From Pseudobdellovibrionaceae bacterium (lineage in GTDB: Bacteria > Bdellovibrionota > Bdellovibrionia > Bdellovibrionales > Bdellovibrionaceae), in assembly GCA_019637915.1 (NCBI GenBank), contig JAHBUV010000001.1, forward strand, positions 2,140,565 through 2,204,564: a stretch of DNA of 64,000 nt. The letters are read 5' to 3'. How positions within the stretch are numbered: the stretch's first letter is position 1; every line of letters begins with the position of its first letter. Below, in pieces: positions 5,075 through 50,466 of this stretch. A program made the position numbers and the translations under genes. Below the pieces are notes generated by a model, which worked only from the letters and a program-made list of their open reading frames with translations, did no database searches and was not told the origin of the DNA.

Positions 5075-5854
5075 ATGTCGCTTGTCAGCGTGATGGAAAG
5101 AAAACACATCGTCTCGGTGCGCATGAACCGCCCGGACGTCCGCAATGCCTTCAATCCCGAGATGATCGAGGAACTGACGCGCATTTTCCGCGGCTTCGAA
5201 AAACGCAAAGACCTGCGCGCCGTGATTTTTTCCGGCGAGGGGAAGATCTTCTGCGCCGGGGCCGACCTGTCGTGGATGAAGGCCATGGTGAATTACTCCC
5301 TCGAGCAGAACCGCGAGGACTCGATGAAGCTCTTCAGCATGTTCGAGGCGATGGCCTTGTGCCCGCTGCCGGTGCTGGGGCTCGCTCACGGCGCCGCCTA
5401 CGGCGGGGCTTTGGGGCTGCTCGCCTGCTGCGACGAAGTCATCGTGGAAAAGGGCACTTCGTTTTGTTTCTCGGAAGTGAAACTGGGGATCGCGCCCGCC
5501 GTCATCTCGAGTTTCGTTTTGCGCAAGACCAGCGCGGGCCTCGTGCGTCCATTGATGCTCTCGGGCCGCGTGTTCGACGCCGAAGAGGCGCGCCGCACGG
5601 GATTGGTCCACCACATCGTCGAGGCCGGCGGCGGCCTGAATGAAATCGAAAAACTCGCCCTGCAGTGGTGCGAAGCCGGGCCGGAAGCGGTCCGCGAGAC
5701 CAAAAGGCTCCTGAACGACAACCCGAATCTCGATTGGGACCAGCAGCGCGAGCGCACGGCGCGCCTGATCGCCGAGCGCCGCGTGAGCACGGAAGGGCAG
5801 GAGGGACTGAAGAGCTTCCTCGAAAAACGCAATCCCTCCTGGAGGGACCTGTGA
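5075..5854 (+). CDS. liuC: methylglutaconyl-CoA hydratase (crotonase family)
   Basis: 259 residues. Crotonase fold with the oxyanion-hole segment KIFCAGADLSWM (57-68), the second one AHGAAYGGALGLLACCDEV (104-122) and the acidic residue of FSEVKLGIAP (Glu134). In this operon the expected reaction is hydration of 3-methylglutaconyl-CoA, the carboxylase product, to HMG-CoA, the substrate of the lyase encoded downstream. The start at 5075 is 2 bp behind the liuB stop; the gene ends in a GTGA overlap with the biotin carboxylase gene. The family is certain. The exact substrate rests on the gene neighbourhood. Confidence 0.9.
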   Translation: MSLVSVMERKHIVSVRMNRPDVRNAFNPEMIEELTRIFRGFEKRKDLRAVIFSGEGKIFCAGADLSWMKAMVNYSLEQNREDSMKLFSMFEAMALCPLPVLGLAHGAAYGGALGLLACCDEVIVEKGTSFCFSEVKLGIAPAVISSFVLRKTSAGLVRPLMLSGRVFDAEEARRTGLVHHIVEAGGGLNEIEKLALQWCEAGPEAVRETKRLLNDNPNLDWDQQRERTARLIAERRVSTEGQEGLKSFLEKRNPSWRDL

Positions 5855-7335
5855 AGAGAAATTTCCAGCGCGTCGCCATCGCCAACCGCGGCGAGGTCGC
5901 CGTGCGCATCATCAAGGCCTGCGAAGAGCTGGGCCTGGAAACCCTGCTCCTGCACTCGGAAGCCGACATCAATTCCCGCGCTTACCGCATGGCCACGAAA
6001 ACCATCTGCATCGGCCCCGCGCCGACGGCGGAAAGCTACTTGAGCATCGAGGCCAACATCCGGGGTGCCATCGCCGGCGAGGCGCAGGCCGTGCACCCGG
6101 GCTTCGGTTTCCTGTCCGAGAACGCCGATTTCGCCGAGGCTTGTGAAAAAGCGGGACTCGTTTTCATCGGCCCCGCGCCGGAATCCATCCGCCAATTGGG
6201 CGACAAGGTCCATTGCAAATCCCTGGCGAAATCCGCCGGTCTGCCCCTGGTGCCCGGTTATCAGGGCGACGACCAGGGAGTGGACCGTCTGGTGAACGAG
6301 GCGGAAAAAATCGGCTTCCCGGTGATCGTCAAGGCGGCCGCCGGCGGCGGCGGGCGCGGCATGAAACTGCTGCACTCGCGGGAGGAAGCCCGCGACTTGA
6401 TCGAGTCCGCGCAGCGCGAAGCCCGATCGGCCTTCGGTTCGTCGAAGGTTTTCCTGGAAAAGTACCTCGACCGGGCGAAGCACATCGAATTCCAGATTTT
6501 CGGGGACGCCTCCGGCCGCGTCGTGCACTTGTTCGATCGCGAATGCTCGGTGCAACGCCGCCACCAGAAAATCATCGAAGAGGCCCTGTCGCCGTCTTTG
6601 ACGGAGGAATTGCGCCGCCGCATGGGCGAGGCCGCCGCCGCCATCGGCGCACTCGGCCGCTACCGCGGGGCGGGAACGGTGGAGTTCCTGCTGCAGGACG
6701 GGGAGTTTTACCTGCTCGAGGTGAACACGCGCCTGCAGGTCGAACACCCGGTGACCGAGATGGTGCTCGGCATGGATCTGGTGAAAGCCCAGATTCTCAC
6801 CGCCATGGGCGAATACGTTTTTGACGATCGCCAGATGCGCGTGCCCCGCGGTCATGCCATCGAATGCCGCCTGTACGCGGAGAACCCCTACCTCGGCGGC
6901 ATTCCCAGCACGGGCGTGTTGGGAACCGTGGAGTGGCCCGAGGGCCCGGGCCGCCGTTTTGAATACGGCTTTGAGAAAGGCGACGAGATCACGTCCTTTT
7001 ACGACCCCATGATCGCGAAAGTCATCGTGTGGGACGAAACGCGGCCGCGCGCCATCCGCAAGATGATCCGCACTTTGCGCGACAGCGTGATCTTCGGCGT
7101 GCGCACGAACATCCCTTACCTGATCGAGATCCTGAGCCATCCGGAATTCGTGAACGGCGTCATGACAACAAGATTCATTGAAAATAATTTCCCGGGCCCC
7201 CTGGCCGAGCCCGAGCTGAGCCCGGCGGAGGAAGCCCTGGTGGCTTTCGCCCGCAAGCACCGCCCCGGCGCGGCCGCCGGCGGCGTTTCCGCCCCGGCCG
7301 CCACGCCCTGGACGGGATTCTGGAGGGGGATCTGA
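5851..7335 (+). CDS. biotin carboxylase subunit of methylcrotonoyl-CoA carboxylase (no BCCP domain)
   Basis: 494 residues from a GTG at 5851 with a GGAGGG site; longer in-frame starts upstream lie inside liuC and are not used. It has a complete biotin carboxylase/ATP-grasp: AIANRGEVAVRI (9-20), VHPGFGFLSENA (81-92), the glycine loop KAAAGGGGRGMK (161-172), ECSVQRRHQK (231-240) and EVNTRLQVEHP (290-300). The usual MCC alpha chain runs on for about 170 residues through the BT linker and the biotin domain. Here the chain stops after a short Ala/Pro-rich tail, and the biotin domain is encoded by the next gene. It carboxylates biotin with ATP and bicarbonate. Confidence 0.92.
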   Translation: MKRNFQRVAIANRGEVAVRIIKACEELGLETLLLHSEADINSRAYRMATKTICIGPAPTAESYLSIEANIRGAIAGEAQAVHPGFGFLSENADFAEACEKAGLVFIGPAPESIRQLGDKVHCKSLAKSAGLPLVPGYQGDDQGVDRLVNEAEKIGFPVIVKAAAGGGGRGMKLLHSREEARDLIESAQREARSAFGSSKVFLEKYLDRAKHIEFQIFGDASGRVVHLFDRECSVQRRHQKIIEEALSPSLTEELRRRMGEAAAAIGALGRYRGAGTVEFLLQDGEFYLLEVNTRLQVEHPVTEMVLGMDLVKAQILTAMGEYVFDDRQMRVPRGHAIECRLYAENPYLGGIPSTGVLGTVEWPEGPGRRFEYGFEKGDEITSFYDPMIAKVIVWDETRPRAIRKMIRTLRDSVIFGVRTNIPYLIEILSHPEFVNGVMTTRFIENNFPGPLAEPELSPAEEALVAFARKHRPGAAAGGVSAPAATPWTGFWRGI

Positions 7336-46274: not shown

Positions 46275-47300
46275 TTGTTCATTTATCTCGTTCGCCGCAT
46301 GATCCTGTTGATCCCCACGTTCCTGGGGATCACGCTCGTCACGTTCCTTTTGATCAACCTCGCCCCGGGCGGCCCGGTCGAGCAGAAGCTGCAGGCGATG
46401 CGCTTCGCCGGGGCGATGGGCGGCGGTGACGGCGGTGGCGGCCGCGATTCCGCGGTTTCCGAAGAGGTGGTCGAAGCCCTGAAGAAACAATACGGTTTCG
46501 ACAAACCCGTGCATGTCCGTTACTTCATCTGGCTGAGGAACCTCGTCCACCTGGATTTCGGCAACAGTTTCACTTACGAAGAACCCGTCATCGACGTCAT
46601 CGCCAGCAAATTCCCGGTGTCGCTGCAGTTCGGGATCGCCTCTTTGTTCCTGACCTACATCGTCTGCATCCCGCTCGGGGTGAAGAAAGCCCGGCAGGCG
46701 GGGGGGGCCTTCGACCAGGTCTCGGGCCTGATCCTTTATTTCGCTTACTCCATTCCGCCGCTGGTCCTGGGGATTTTCCTGATCGTTTTCCTGGCGGGAT
46801 CGAGTTACCTGAACTGGTTCCCCATCGGCGGTTTCCAGTCGGACGACTATGAAAGTTTCACTTTGATGGGCAAGATCGGCGATCGCGTCTGGCACTTCGT
46901 TCTGCCCTTGTGCTGTTACGTGATCGGCAGCTTCACGGAGCTGACCATGCTCATGCGGAACTCCATGCTGGACGTCATCAAGTCGGACTACGTGCGCACG
47001 GCCCGCGCCAAGGGGCTCTCGGAAAACAAGGTCATCTTCAAACACGCCTTGCGCAACGCCCTCATCCCCATCGCCACGGGCCTGTCGGGGTTTTTCGCCC
47101 TCTTCCTGGCGGGCTCCCTGATCATCGAGCAGATTTTCAACCTGGACGGCATCGGCCTGCTCAGCTATCAGTCCATTTTGTCCCGTGATTACAACGTCAT
47201 CATGGGATTGACCTTCATTTCGTCGATGATTCTGCTGTTCGGCCGCATTTTCAGCGACGTCGTCTACGTGCTGATTGACCCGAGGATCGATTTCAAATGA
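46275..47300 (+). CDS. oppB: peptide ABC transporter permease (OppB/DppB type)
   Basis: 341 residues from a TTG at 46275 behind AAAGGGG. Six membrane helices beginning with FIYLVRRMILLIPTFLGITL, the hallmark OppB N-terminus. APGGPVEQ follows, and the EAA loop (VRTARAKGLSENKVIFKHALRNALIPI) contacts the ATPase. A glycine-rich insertion (GGGDGGGGRD) near residue 50 is unusual. Overlaps the next permease gene by 4 bp. Confidence 0.93.
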   Translation: MFIYLVRRMILLIPTFLGITLVTFLLINLAPGGPVEQKLQAMRFAGAMGGGDGGGGRDSAVSEEVVEALKKQYGFDKPVHVRYFIWLRNLVHLDFGNSFTYEEPVIDVIASKFPVSLQFGIASLFLTYIVCIPLGVKKARQAGGAFDQVSGLILYFAYSIPPLVLGIFLIVFLAGSSYLNWFPIGGFQSDDYESFTLMGKIGDRVWHFVLPLCCYVIGSFTELTMLMRNSMLDVIKSDYVRTARAKGLSENKVIFKHALRNALIPIATGLSGFFALFLAGSLIIEQIFNLDGIGLLSYQSILSRDYNVIMGLTFISSMILLFGRIFSDVVYVLIDPRIDFK

Positions 47301-48346
47301 ACTTGCGACGCTGGGATCCTCTGGAAAGATTTTTCATCCGCAACGAACTCACGCTCAAACGCTGGCGGCGTTTCAAACGCAACAAGATCGCCATGTTCTG
47401 CCTGTGGGTGATGGTGGCCTTTTTCTTTTTCAGCTTCACGGCGGAATTCTGGGCCAACAGCAAACCGCACTTCATGAAGTACCAGGGGCATTACTACGCG
47501 CCTTTGTTCTTCGATTACCACCCCAGTCGGTTCGGCCTGAATGACATCTTCGTGATGGATTACCGCAGCCTCGAGATGAAAGACGGCGACTGGTGGATCT
47601 GGCCGCTGGTGCAGTGGAATCCCTACGAGAACAACAGCGTGGTGGAGAACTACCCGTCGCCGCCGACGCGGGACAATTTCTTCGGCACCGATGACCGCGG
47701 CCGGGACGTGTTCACGCGCTTGCTGTACGGCCTTCGTTACACCCTGATTTTCGCCATGGGCAGCTGGTTCCTGACCTATTGCGTGGGTTGCGCCATCGGC
47801 GCCTTCATGGGTTATTTCGGCGGCAAGACCGATCTGCTCGGCATGCGGGCCGTGGAGATCATCGAAAGCATGCCGGTGTTCTTCATCCTCATCACGATGA
47901 TCTCGATCTTCAATCCCAACATCGGGCTCTTGATCTGCTTCATGGTGCTGTTCGGTTGGACGAACATCTCGCAGTACATGCGGGCGCAGTTCCTGTCGCT
48001 GCGCAAGCGCGAGTACATCGAGGCGGCGCGCGCCATCGGCGCCAACAACGCGCGGATCGTGTTCAAGCACATCCTGCCGAACGCGCTGACGCCCATCGTG
48101 ACTTTCGCGCCGTTCACCATCGCGGCCTACGTGTCGACTTTGTCCTTCATGGATTACCTGGGCCTGGGTTTGCGGCCTCCGACCCCGAGTTGGGGGGAGC
48201 TCCTGTCGCAAGCCCAGAGATACTTCACCATCGCTGAGTGGCTGGTCTGGGCCCCGGCCGGCGCCCTCGTGATCACGCTGACCCTGCTGATCAACATCGG
48301 CCTCGCCGTGCGCGACGCCTTCGACCCCCGCTCCTCCGTCGGCTAA
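47297..48346 (+). CDS. oppC: peptide ABC transporter permease (OppC/YejE type)
   Basis: 349 residues. The first helix (IAMFCLWVMVAFFFFSFTAEF) is followed by a periplasmic insertion of about 80 residues (GDWWIWPLVQWNPYENNS) that resembles YejE more than OppC. Then FFGTDDRGRDVFTRLLYGLR and an EAA loop (EAARAIGANNARIVFKHILPNALTPI) close a standard permease. It forms the pore with the preceding protein. Its TAA stop directly touches the left end of the 194-bp inverted-repeat element. Confidence 0.92.
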   Translation: MNLRRWDPLERFFIRNELTLKRWRRFKRNKIAMFCLWVMVAFFFFSFTAEFWANSKPHFMKYQGHYYAPLFFDYHPSRFGLNDIFVMDYRSLEMKDGDWWIWPLVQWNPYENNSVVENYPSPPTRDNFFGTDDRGRDVFTRLLYGLRYTLIFAMGSWFLTYCVGCAIGAFMGYFGGKTDLLGMRAVEIIESMPVFFILITMISIFNPNIGLLICFMVLFGWTNISQYMRAQFLSLRKREYIEAARAIGANNARIVFKHILPNALTPIVTFAPFTIAAYVSTLSFMDYLGLGLRPPTPSWGELLSQAQRYFTIAEWLVWAPAGALVITLTLLINIGLAVRDAFDPRSSVG

Positions 48347-48373
48347 AAGGTACCGCCTACTTTCTGGTACCCC
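48347..48373 (+). repeat. left terminal inverted repeat
   Basis: Begins AAGGTACCGCCTACTTTCTG, continues GGTACCCC with the shared GG at the join. It starts at the base after the oppC stop codon. Contains two GGTACC sites 11 bases apart. Confidence 0.8.
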
Positions 48374-48513
48374 TCCGCGTTAACGGCATTCTTAAACGGC
48401 GCTCCGCTGTTCTCCAAATGTGACCCATGGACGAGTTCTCGCTCCGTCATCTTTTCGCTTCAAAAGAGAGGCACCATGCCAGAGAAAAGGCCATTCCTTG
48501 TCTCTGACACGGT

Positions 48514-48540
48514 GGGATACCAGAAAGTAGGCGGTACCTT
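48514..48540 (-). repeat. right terminal inverted repeat
   Basis: Read on the minus strand it repeats the left end with a single C-to-T change in the inner GGTACC. It ends at the base before the speA stop codon. Confidence 0.8.
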
Positions 48541-50466
48541 CTATTCGGCTTCTTCGAGGTAGGTGTAGCCGGAGAGGCCTTCTTCGTAGTGTTTGATGAG
48601 CAGGCGGGCTTCCTGCTTGGCGATGGTGCCGCGCTGGATGCCTTCCTCGATGGCCTGGCGGACGCTGTCCACCATGCCGGCGCGGTCGAACTGCACGTAG
48701 GTCAGCACCTCGGTCACGGTGTCGCCGGGGACGTAGTGATCGATGGTGTAACCGGCCTCCGACAGGGACACGTGGACCGCGTCGGTGTCGCCGAACAGAT
48801 TGTGCAGGTCGCCCAGGATCTCCTGGTAGGCGCCCGTCAGGAAGATGCCCATGTAGTAGGGCTTGCCCTCTTCCACGTGGTGCACCTGGATGGTCTTGCG
48901 GTAACTGCCGTTCTCGACGTCGATGAATTTCTCGATCTTGCCGTCGGAATCGCAGGTCAGGTCCGCCAGGGTGGCCGAGTGATTCGGCTCCTCATTCAGC
49001 TGATGGATCGGCATGACGGGAAAGAGCTGCCCCACGGCCCAGGAGTCCGGCACCGACTGGAACACCGAGAAGTTGCAGAAGTAGGTGTCGCAGAGTTCGT
49101 CGTCGAGCTTGGCGACGATGTCCTCGCAATCCGGGGTCTTTTTCGCGATCAACGACATCTTCGTGGCGATCGTGAAGTACATGCTTTCGCACCAGGCCCG
49201 CTGTTCCAGGGACAGGACGCCGTAGGTGAACAGCTGCAGGGTCTCCTGCTTCGCCACGAGCAGATCGTTGAAGCACTCGTTGATGTTGTCCTTGTTCACC
49301 TTCTCGTAGATGTACTGCAGGTCCTGCATGATGTTGGGGTCGCCCTTGATCGCCGGACGCGGCGGGGTTTCCCGGTGCAGCTCGTTTTTCCCCATGACGT
49401 TGAACACCAGCACGGAGTGGTGGGCCACCAGCGCGCGGCCGCACTCGGTGACGATGTTCGGGTGGGGGATGCCCTTTTCATCGCACATCGCCTGCAGGGT
49501 CGAGACGACGTCGTTCGCGTACTCCTGCTCGGAGTAATTGATGGAGCTGTCGGTTTTGCCCGAGCCGTCGTAATCGACGCCGAGGCCGCCGCCCACGTCG
49601 ATGTATTTGAGGCCGGCGCCCATCTTGATGAGTTCGGAGTAAAAACGCGCGCCCTCTTTGAGGGAGGACTTGATGCTCGAGATGTTCGGGACCTGGGAGC
49701 CGATGTGGTAATGCAGCAGCTCCAGGCAATCGAGCATGTTCTCTTTGCGCAGGGTTTCGACGCCGTCGACGATTTCCACCGCGGTCAGGCCGAATTTCGA
49801 GCGCGCGCCGCTCGAGTCCACCCACTTGCCGGCACCCTGCGTGTAGAGCTTGGCGCGGAAACCGATGCGCGGGCGGGCATTGAATTTCTTGGCGGCGTTG
49901 ATGATCAAGGCCAGCTCTTCCTTGCGGTCGACGACGATGATCGTGTTGCGGCCGAGCTTCTGCGACAGGATGGCGGTCTCGATGTACTCCTGGTCCTTGA
50001 AACCGTTGCAGATGATGACCCCGTCGCTGTTGTTGGCCATGGCCAGCACCACCAGCAGTTCCGGCTTCGAGCCGCACTCGAGGCCCAGGCGCAGGTCCTT
50101 CCCGAAACGCACGATCTCCTGCACGAGATGGCGCTGCTGGTTCACCTTGATCGGGTAAACGCCGCAGTAGTTGCCCTTGTAGTTGTGGTCGGCGAAGGCT
50201 TTCTGGAAGCAGGAATGCATCAGCTCGACGCGGGATTTGATGATGTCCTGGAAACGGATCATGATCGGCACGCGGATGCCGCGGTCAAGCAGATCCTGGG
50301 TCAGCTCGTAGAGGTCCACCGACGGGCCGTTGCTCCCTTGCGGGGTGATTTGCACGCGGCCTTGGGGATTGACGCGGAAATAACCGTTCCCCCAATTGTT
50401 GATGCCGTACATCTCGGCGCTTTTTTCAGGACTCCAGTTCGTTCCGTTGCCATTCGTCGTGGACAT
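48541..50466 (-). CDS. speA: biosynthetic arginine decarboxylase
   Basis: 641 residues, full length. PLP enzyme with fold type III barrel: YGINNWGNGYFRVN near the N-terminus, VYPIKVNQQRHLVQEI with the PLP lysine, a LHYHIGSQVPNISSIK block, YIDVGGGLGVDYDGS, and the C-terminal CDSDGKIEKFI block with the catalytic-type Cys. It makes agmatine from arginine; with the agmatinase at 43409 it gives putrescine. Its stop abuts the inverted-repeat element. Confidence 0.95.
   Translation of the reverse strand: MSTTNGNGTNWSPEKSAEMYGINNWGNGYFRVNPQGRVQITPQGSNGPSVDLYELTQDLLDRGIRVPIMIRFQDIIKSRVELMHSCFQKAFADHNYKGNYCGVYPIKVNQQRHLVQEIVRFGKDLRLGLECGSKPELLVVLAMANNSDGVIICNGFKDQEYIETAILSQKLGRNTIIVVDRKEELALIINAAKKFNARPRIGFRAKLYTQGAGKWVDSSGARSKFGLTAVEIVDGVETLRKENMLDCLELLHYHIGSQVPNISSIKSSLKEGARFYSELIKMGAGLKYIDVGGGLGVDYDGSGKTDSSINYSEQEYANDVVSTLQAMCDEKGIPHPNIVTECGRALVAHHSVLVFNVMGKNELHRETPPRPAIKGDPNIMQDLQYIYEKVNKDNINECFNDLLVAKQETLQLFTYGVLSLEQRAWCESMYFTIATKMSLIAKKTPDCEDIVAKLDDELCDTYFCNFSVFQSVPDSWAVGQLFPVMPIHQLNEEPNHSATLADLTCDSDGKIEKFIDVENGSYRKTIQVHHVEEGKPYYMGIFLTGAYQEILGDLHNLFGDTDAVHVSLSEAGYTIDHYVPGDTVTEVLTYVQFDRAGMVDSVRQAIEEGIQRGTIAKQEARLLIKHYEEGLSGYTYLEEAE

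Follow-up and report, generated by a model that had tools for sequence, protein, structure and literature searches.

The near-palindromic element of 194 bp at positions 48347–48540 of the window (the whole stretch of 64,000 nucleotides that was analysed) was attributed to REPINs. It is, with a probability of about 0.9, a non-autonomous doublet that belongs to a family of about 20 elements and is mobilised in trans by a RAYT transposase with matching ends. The family is new and its kind is known: REPINs, RAYT genes flanked by terminal inverted repeats and REP-supplied stop codons have all been described.

The element between the oppC and speA genes

According to the original prediction, an inverted-repeat element exactly fills the gap between the stop codons of two convergent genes, oppC and speA. 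The positions of both stop codons agree with this, and the gene names are backed by Pfam domains. The features of the locus are as follows.

47297–48346, forward strand: oppC-like permease gene (Pfam OppC_N and BPD_transp_1), whose stop codon at 48344–48346 adjoins the element
48347–48540, no strand assigned: whole REPIN-type element, filling the space between the oppC and speA stop codons
48346–48364, forward strand: left REP hairpin AAAGGTA-CCGCC-TACTTTC, with one G·T pair and the first A/C unpaired, assigned from the sequence
48365–48380, forward strand: inner part of the left arm, TGGTACCCCTCCGCGT, assigned by comparison with other copies
48381–48506, no strand assigned: copy-specific non-coding core, delimited by a genome search with the element
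48472–48514, no strand assigned: inner hairpin within the core region, with arms 48472–48490 and 48496–48514 (19 nt, 84% complementary)
48507–48522, reverse strand: inner part of the right arm, from the end inward TGGTATCCCACCGTGT, assigned by comparison with other copies
48523–48541, reverse strand: right REP hairpin GAAGGTA-CCGCC-TACTTTC, with a 7-bp stem and one G·T pair, assigned from the sequence
48541–50466, reverse strand: speA-like arginine decarboxylase gene (Pfam arginine decarboxylase domains), whose stop codon at 48541–48543 adjoins the element

Comparison of AAGGTACCGCCTACTTTCTGGTAcCCC (48347–48373) with the reverse complement of 48514–48540 (...GGTAtCCC) confirmed the predicted terminal inverted repeats: starting at the AA that precedes GGTACC, they differ at only one of 27 bp. 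A repeat search lengthened the arms to 37 nt with 89% complementarity (48344–48380 and 48507–48543). The pattern GGTACC-N11-GGTACC, which had been ascribed to each end, was found in the left arm only; the right arm reads GGTATCC where the left one has the second GGTACC, and the whole window contains only three GGTACC sites. The weaker inner symmetry that had been noted corresponds to the inner hairpin at 48472–48514. Both REP hairpins overlap a stop codon by one base: the oppC TAA ends on the first A of the left hairpin, and the speA TAG ends on the first G of the right one.

The GCGTCA/GCATCA-like box of the left inner arm was also found in other copies of the family. The core has no counterpart elsewhere in the genome, and all significant matches of the element lay in positions 1–43 or 158–194 of the query. 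Folding of the element was compared with that of shuffled sequences and gave a z-score of about −8 on both strands; the predicted RNA fold has an energy of about −92 kcal/mol.

Copies of the family and the RAYT gene

The 21-base end core GGTACCGCCTACTTTCTGGTA was searched for in the genome that contains the window (G000, 3.32 Mb), and 36 occurrences with no more than two mismatches were found. The reversed-pattern control gave none, and the number of chance matches expected in the window was zero. These end cores occupy 20 places, namely 16 inverted pairs and 4 solo arms. The spans of the pairs between the outer core ends were 53, 53, 53, 70, 83, 88, 90, 101, 112, 123, 123, 130, 141, 190, 833 and 1004 nt. 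Degenerate mates of the solo arms were not found within 1.5 kb, and these arms are probably decayed or recombined doublets. Each arm in the family starts with a 19-nt imperfect palindrome (consensus GAAGGTA-CCGCC-TACTTTC, one G·T pair). The inner sequence varies among copies, several of which are near-fully perfect palindromes (for example, those at 632168, 1069186, 2746945 and 2761287). At positions 22–40 the arms within one copy were 71% alike versus 57% between copies, a value as high as this being reached by 3 of 5000 permutations. Most copies are located at gene ends, and some lie between co-directional genes.

The pair with a span of 833 nt (G000:C1:2222577-2223409) lies beyond the window, about 34 kb from the element at 48347–48540, and its ends surround an ORF of 231 aa. 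Its product matched the profiles Pfam Y1_Tnp (E-value 2e-7) and NCBIfam NF047646 REP_Tyr_transpos (E-value 3e-15, with a score of 56 bits that is under the curated cut-off of 80 bits), as well as the solved E. coli TnpAREP 4ER8 (E-value 8e-4). The HUH motif (NHYH) and the Y---NP signature are intact. Judging by these sequence features, the protein is a RAYT, that is, a class 2 TnpAREP-type HUH/Y1 transposase. The HxH, Y and NP residues are invariant in 69 aligned relatives, which points to intactness and not to independent conservation, since the relatives were chosen by those motifs; the same alignment also keeps columns such as W34 and R19. The named best relatives come from Bdellovibrionota metagenome-assembled genomes and Bdellovibrio isolates, with identities of up to 47%, so that the host probably belongs to this phylum as well. 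This RAYT is the sole transposase gene that was found enclosed by family ends. In the genome of the same genus (G001), the end-core repeat was absent and no match to the family RAYT was found at a cut-off of 1e-20. The genome search for the end sequence, proposed in the original prediction as a check for a mobile family, revealed multiple, mainly paired copies and a RAYT/IS200-like gene bearing the same ends.

Some further arrangements were observed in this genome. Two REPINs located 2 kb apart have an identical core in opposite orientation (G000:C1:400915-401037 and 402971-403093; L062:4914-5040 and 6970-7096); no other copies of the family clearly have a core in common. Two copies of 53 nt lie 1.7 kb apart (L063:4679-4731 and 6344-6396), and the first of them is located in a long open frame. 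A pair of ends of the same family surrounds a gene for an isochorismatase/YcaC-like protein (G000:C1:3198489-3199498; L076:4490-5504), and its arms are alike even in the copy-specific part. Homologs of this protein were found in only 5 of 69 other genomes (32–48% identity) and not in the same-genus genome, where 5.2 kb of other genes separates the neighbours of the locus. The isochorismatase-like gene is possibly a passenger between the family ends. The genome also contains a second RAYT (G000:C1:670750-671367; L240:1620-2520) that has a separate REPIN family, AAAAGGTGCCAGGTCCTG...CAGGACCTGGCACCTTTT. Of this second family, at least eight copies were found (L241–L244, L076), it is present in the same-genus genome too, and one copy sits within the isochorismatase-gene pair (L076, about 5402–5462).

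Junctions with stop codons and occupancy of the gap

Stop codons were counted if they closed an open frame of 100 codons or more and ended at −1 to +2 relative to the GGTACC core. In G000, 20 of the 36 ends had such a stop codon, and in G076, a genome from another taxonomic family, 13 of 32 had one. The stop-codon rates at random positions of the same stretches were 0.85% and 0.5%, respectively. The three bases ahead of the core in G000 are nearly always R-A-A, even where no stop codon is located there. The flanks of 16 copies were joined after removal of R-A-A and its mirror, and the junctions obtained included CT^TA in three copies and CT^AG and CC^GG in two copies each (^ marks the junction); no consistent target-site duplication was found at these 16 joined flanks. 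A convergent CTAG overlap may have been the target, which would yield TGA on both sides after insertion. This reading is suggestive only, because a base-exact empty site was not found: for the pairs at 2746945 and 373077 such sites were sought in 40 genomes, where the flanking genes were non-adjacent or non-conserved.

IS200/IS605 and TnpAREP enzymes act on single-stranded DNA, in which they recognise the end hairpins and at these sites cleave the strand and rejoin it. For the element as a REPIN mobilised by the RAYT, we infer that the arms would fold in a single-stranded region, as at the lagging-strand template, and that the RAYT would recognise the end hairpins in trans, cut and rejoin the strand and put a copy elsewhere. 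Surviving insertions would be those located at the 3' end of a gene, in many cases between two convergent genes. At such junctions the terminal R-A-A of the element completes the stop codon and neither neighbour is damaged. A host T with GA from the element gives TGA, and a host TA with A or G gives TAA or TAG. The precise junctions may reflect target choice or selection. New cores could arise from capture of the DNA between two ends or from fold-back copying.

A RAYT system specialised for stop codons would go further: CT^AG-like sites at convergent gene ends would be preferred as targets, R-A-A would regenerate both stop codons, and a passenger such as the isochorismatase-like gene would be carried occasionally. 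We consider such specialisation distinctly unlikely. The principle of stop-codon supply is already known, because REPs located less than 20 bp from both convergent ORFs have been described, as have REP ends that supply TAG stop codons (PMC3733652).

Occupancy of the oppC–speA gap was compared among related genomes. In G004, G014 and G028 the gap measures 9, 17 and 62 bp, respectively. In G024 it is exactly filled by a RAYT element of 809 bp (TAA^AGGTACC...GGTAC^CTA), and a RAYT is also located between oppC and speA in G043. In G025, which belongs to another genus, a palindrome of 70 bp fills the gap (L222, G025:C39, about 1213–1282), and the arm of this palindrome occurs repeatedly in G025, with 6 matches in forward and 6 in reverse orientation at no more than three mismatches. 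Other REP-like hairpins are found at the speA stop codon in G006, G033, G036 and G019. The gap of the same-genus genome contains 503 bp of other sequence, and close relatives gave no base-exact empty site. As the occupancy differs among relatives, the site has been used repeatedly by different families and the copy in G000 is not ancestral to the locus. A single copy at a position conserved in all relatives, which had been named as the finding that would argue for a local terminator, is thereby contradicted, the repeat being absent from the same-genus genome and the gap being variable.

Alternative explanations and comparison with known systems

The element could now serve mainly as an RNA control element at both 3' ends, where a stable hairpin would slow terminating ribosomes or protect mRNA ends. 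The hairpin lies directly on both stop codons, the predicted fold of the window copy is as strong as given above, and there is a precedent in E. coli, where REPs no more than 15 nt away from a stop codon are reported to slow ribosomes, as summarised in PMC12306157. However, the core and the length vary by copy and the same-genus genome has no copies, which does not suggest a conserved role at the locus, and any such effect could be a consequence of insertion. A regulatory side effect of the element is plausible. This explanation is compatible with a mobile origin, and it is control of RNA as the selected function that we regard as fairly unlikely.

Convergent genes and a long near-perfect stem would also suit a non-mobile structure confined to this locus, either an intrinsic terminator acting in both directions or an RNase III substrate, both of which had been offered as alternatives in the original prediction. 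A crude consensus scan, however, revealed no T-tract terminator-like site at the element, no Rfam family was matched, about 20 copies are present genome-wide, some of them between co-directional genes, and the oppC–speA gap measures only 9–17 bp in relatives. An intrinsic terminator was rejected, the stem being multi-copy and not followed by a T-tract, and a local element of this kind is very improbable. The layout had been described as that of REPINs or MITEs, and the REPIN part of this statement fits. Like a MITE, the element is small, non-coding and multi-copy, and it has terminal inverted repeats. Nevertheless, the only transposase gene found within the family ends is the RAYT, each end is itself a REP-like hairpin and the 16 joined flanks lack a consistent duplication; mobilisation by a classical DDE transposase is hardly credible, and a MITE in this sense was rejected.

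A REPIN consists of two inverted REPs around a spacer and folds into a hairpin; these sequences are extragenic, occur more often as doublets than as singlets and have one associated RAYT (PMC3116915, Bertels & Rainey 2011). The element and its family correspond to this in the hairpin-forming inverted REP pair with a spacer, the repetition outside genes, the excess of doublets over singlets and the RAYT gene of the genome flanked by the same REP sequence. They differ in the low number of copies (about 20), in the REP sequence and in the spacer, which is nearly absent in some copies, reaches 150 nt in others and has unrelated cores. In TIRtrons/TIRYT, a RAYT-like gene is located between inverted repeats without a GTAG foot, and these repeats also occur as dimers and singles, some of them self-complementary (PMC3733652, Rocco, De Gregorio & Di Nocera 2013). 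Likewise, the RAYT of the G000 family is located between terminal inverted repeats of a non-GTAG kind, and further copies of these repeats occur elsewhere in the genome. Unlike in the main TIRYT group (subclass 2.1), its ends are of the GGTAC type and inspection of the conserved arm revealed no GGGGWSAS motif; the host phylum was not found in PMC3733652.

With E. coli-type GTAG REPs/BIMEs and TnpAREP (Nunvar 2010, PMC2817692; Quentin 2018, PMC6006769), the family shares a class 2 HUH and Y---NP transposase and the location at 3' ends. However, the GTAG/GTGG tetranucleotide is absent 5' of the hairpin foot in G000, and GTAG occurs only inside the stem, where it is not kept in related families. 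In other RAYT families the place 5' of the foot is taken by GGTA, GGAA or GTAA. A Y1 transposase, terminal hairpins and a presumed single-strand mechanism are common to the family and IS200/IS605, whereas the latter have the class 1 Y---Q signature and the G000 family has Y---NP, one transposase gene and many gene-less copies. The diversity of TnpAREP has already been described (PMC6006769). No report of REPINs, TIR-flanked RAYTs or TnpAREP in Bdellovibrio or Bdellovibrionota was found in the literature searched, which does not prove their absence.

Open questions in the field are the mechanism by which RAYTs move REPINs and the reason why REP sequences are located so near stop codons. Bdellovibrionota contain many independent RAYT/REPIN families with perfect ends and a shared end pattern, and one gap, that between oppC and speA, is occupied by different families in different lineages; therefore, target choice versus selection and the co-evolution of RAYT and REP become testable. 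For annotation, the attribution means one candidate regulatory RNA or terminator fewer.

Inverted repeats of the A-GGTAC/GGTGC type commonly frame RAYT loci throughout Bdellovibrionota; examples from related genomes are AAGGTAC-GCC-GTACCTT and AGGTGC-CAT-GCACCT. The genome G076 has 61 end cores that differ from the G000 core by 2–3 mismatches and are mostly located in REPINs of 54 nt; its own RAYT, 37–38% identical to that of G000, is flanked by these end cores. Both partners have changed in 3 of the 25 stem pairs of the 54-nt REPINs, the change in one arm being matched in the other, and pairing is kept in 99.6% of cells; the covariation score was reached by 0 of 500 shuffles. Such paired changes would be expected both if the fold is under selection and if the element is copied in hairpin form. 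A second box, GCGTCA/GCATCA, located about 30 nt inside the ends, recurs across different RAYT families of the phylum (L104, L179, L182, L190 and the G000 copies).
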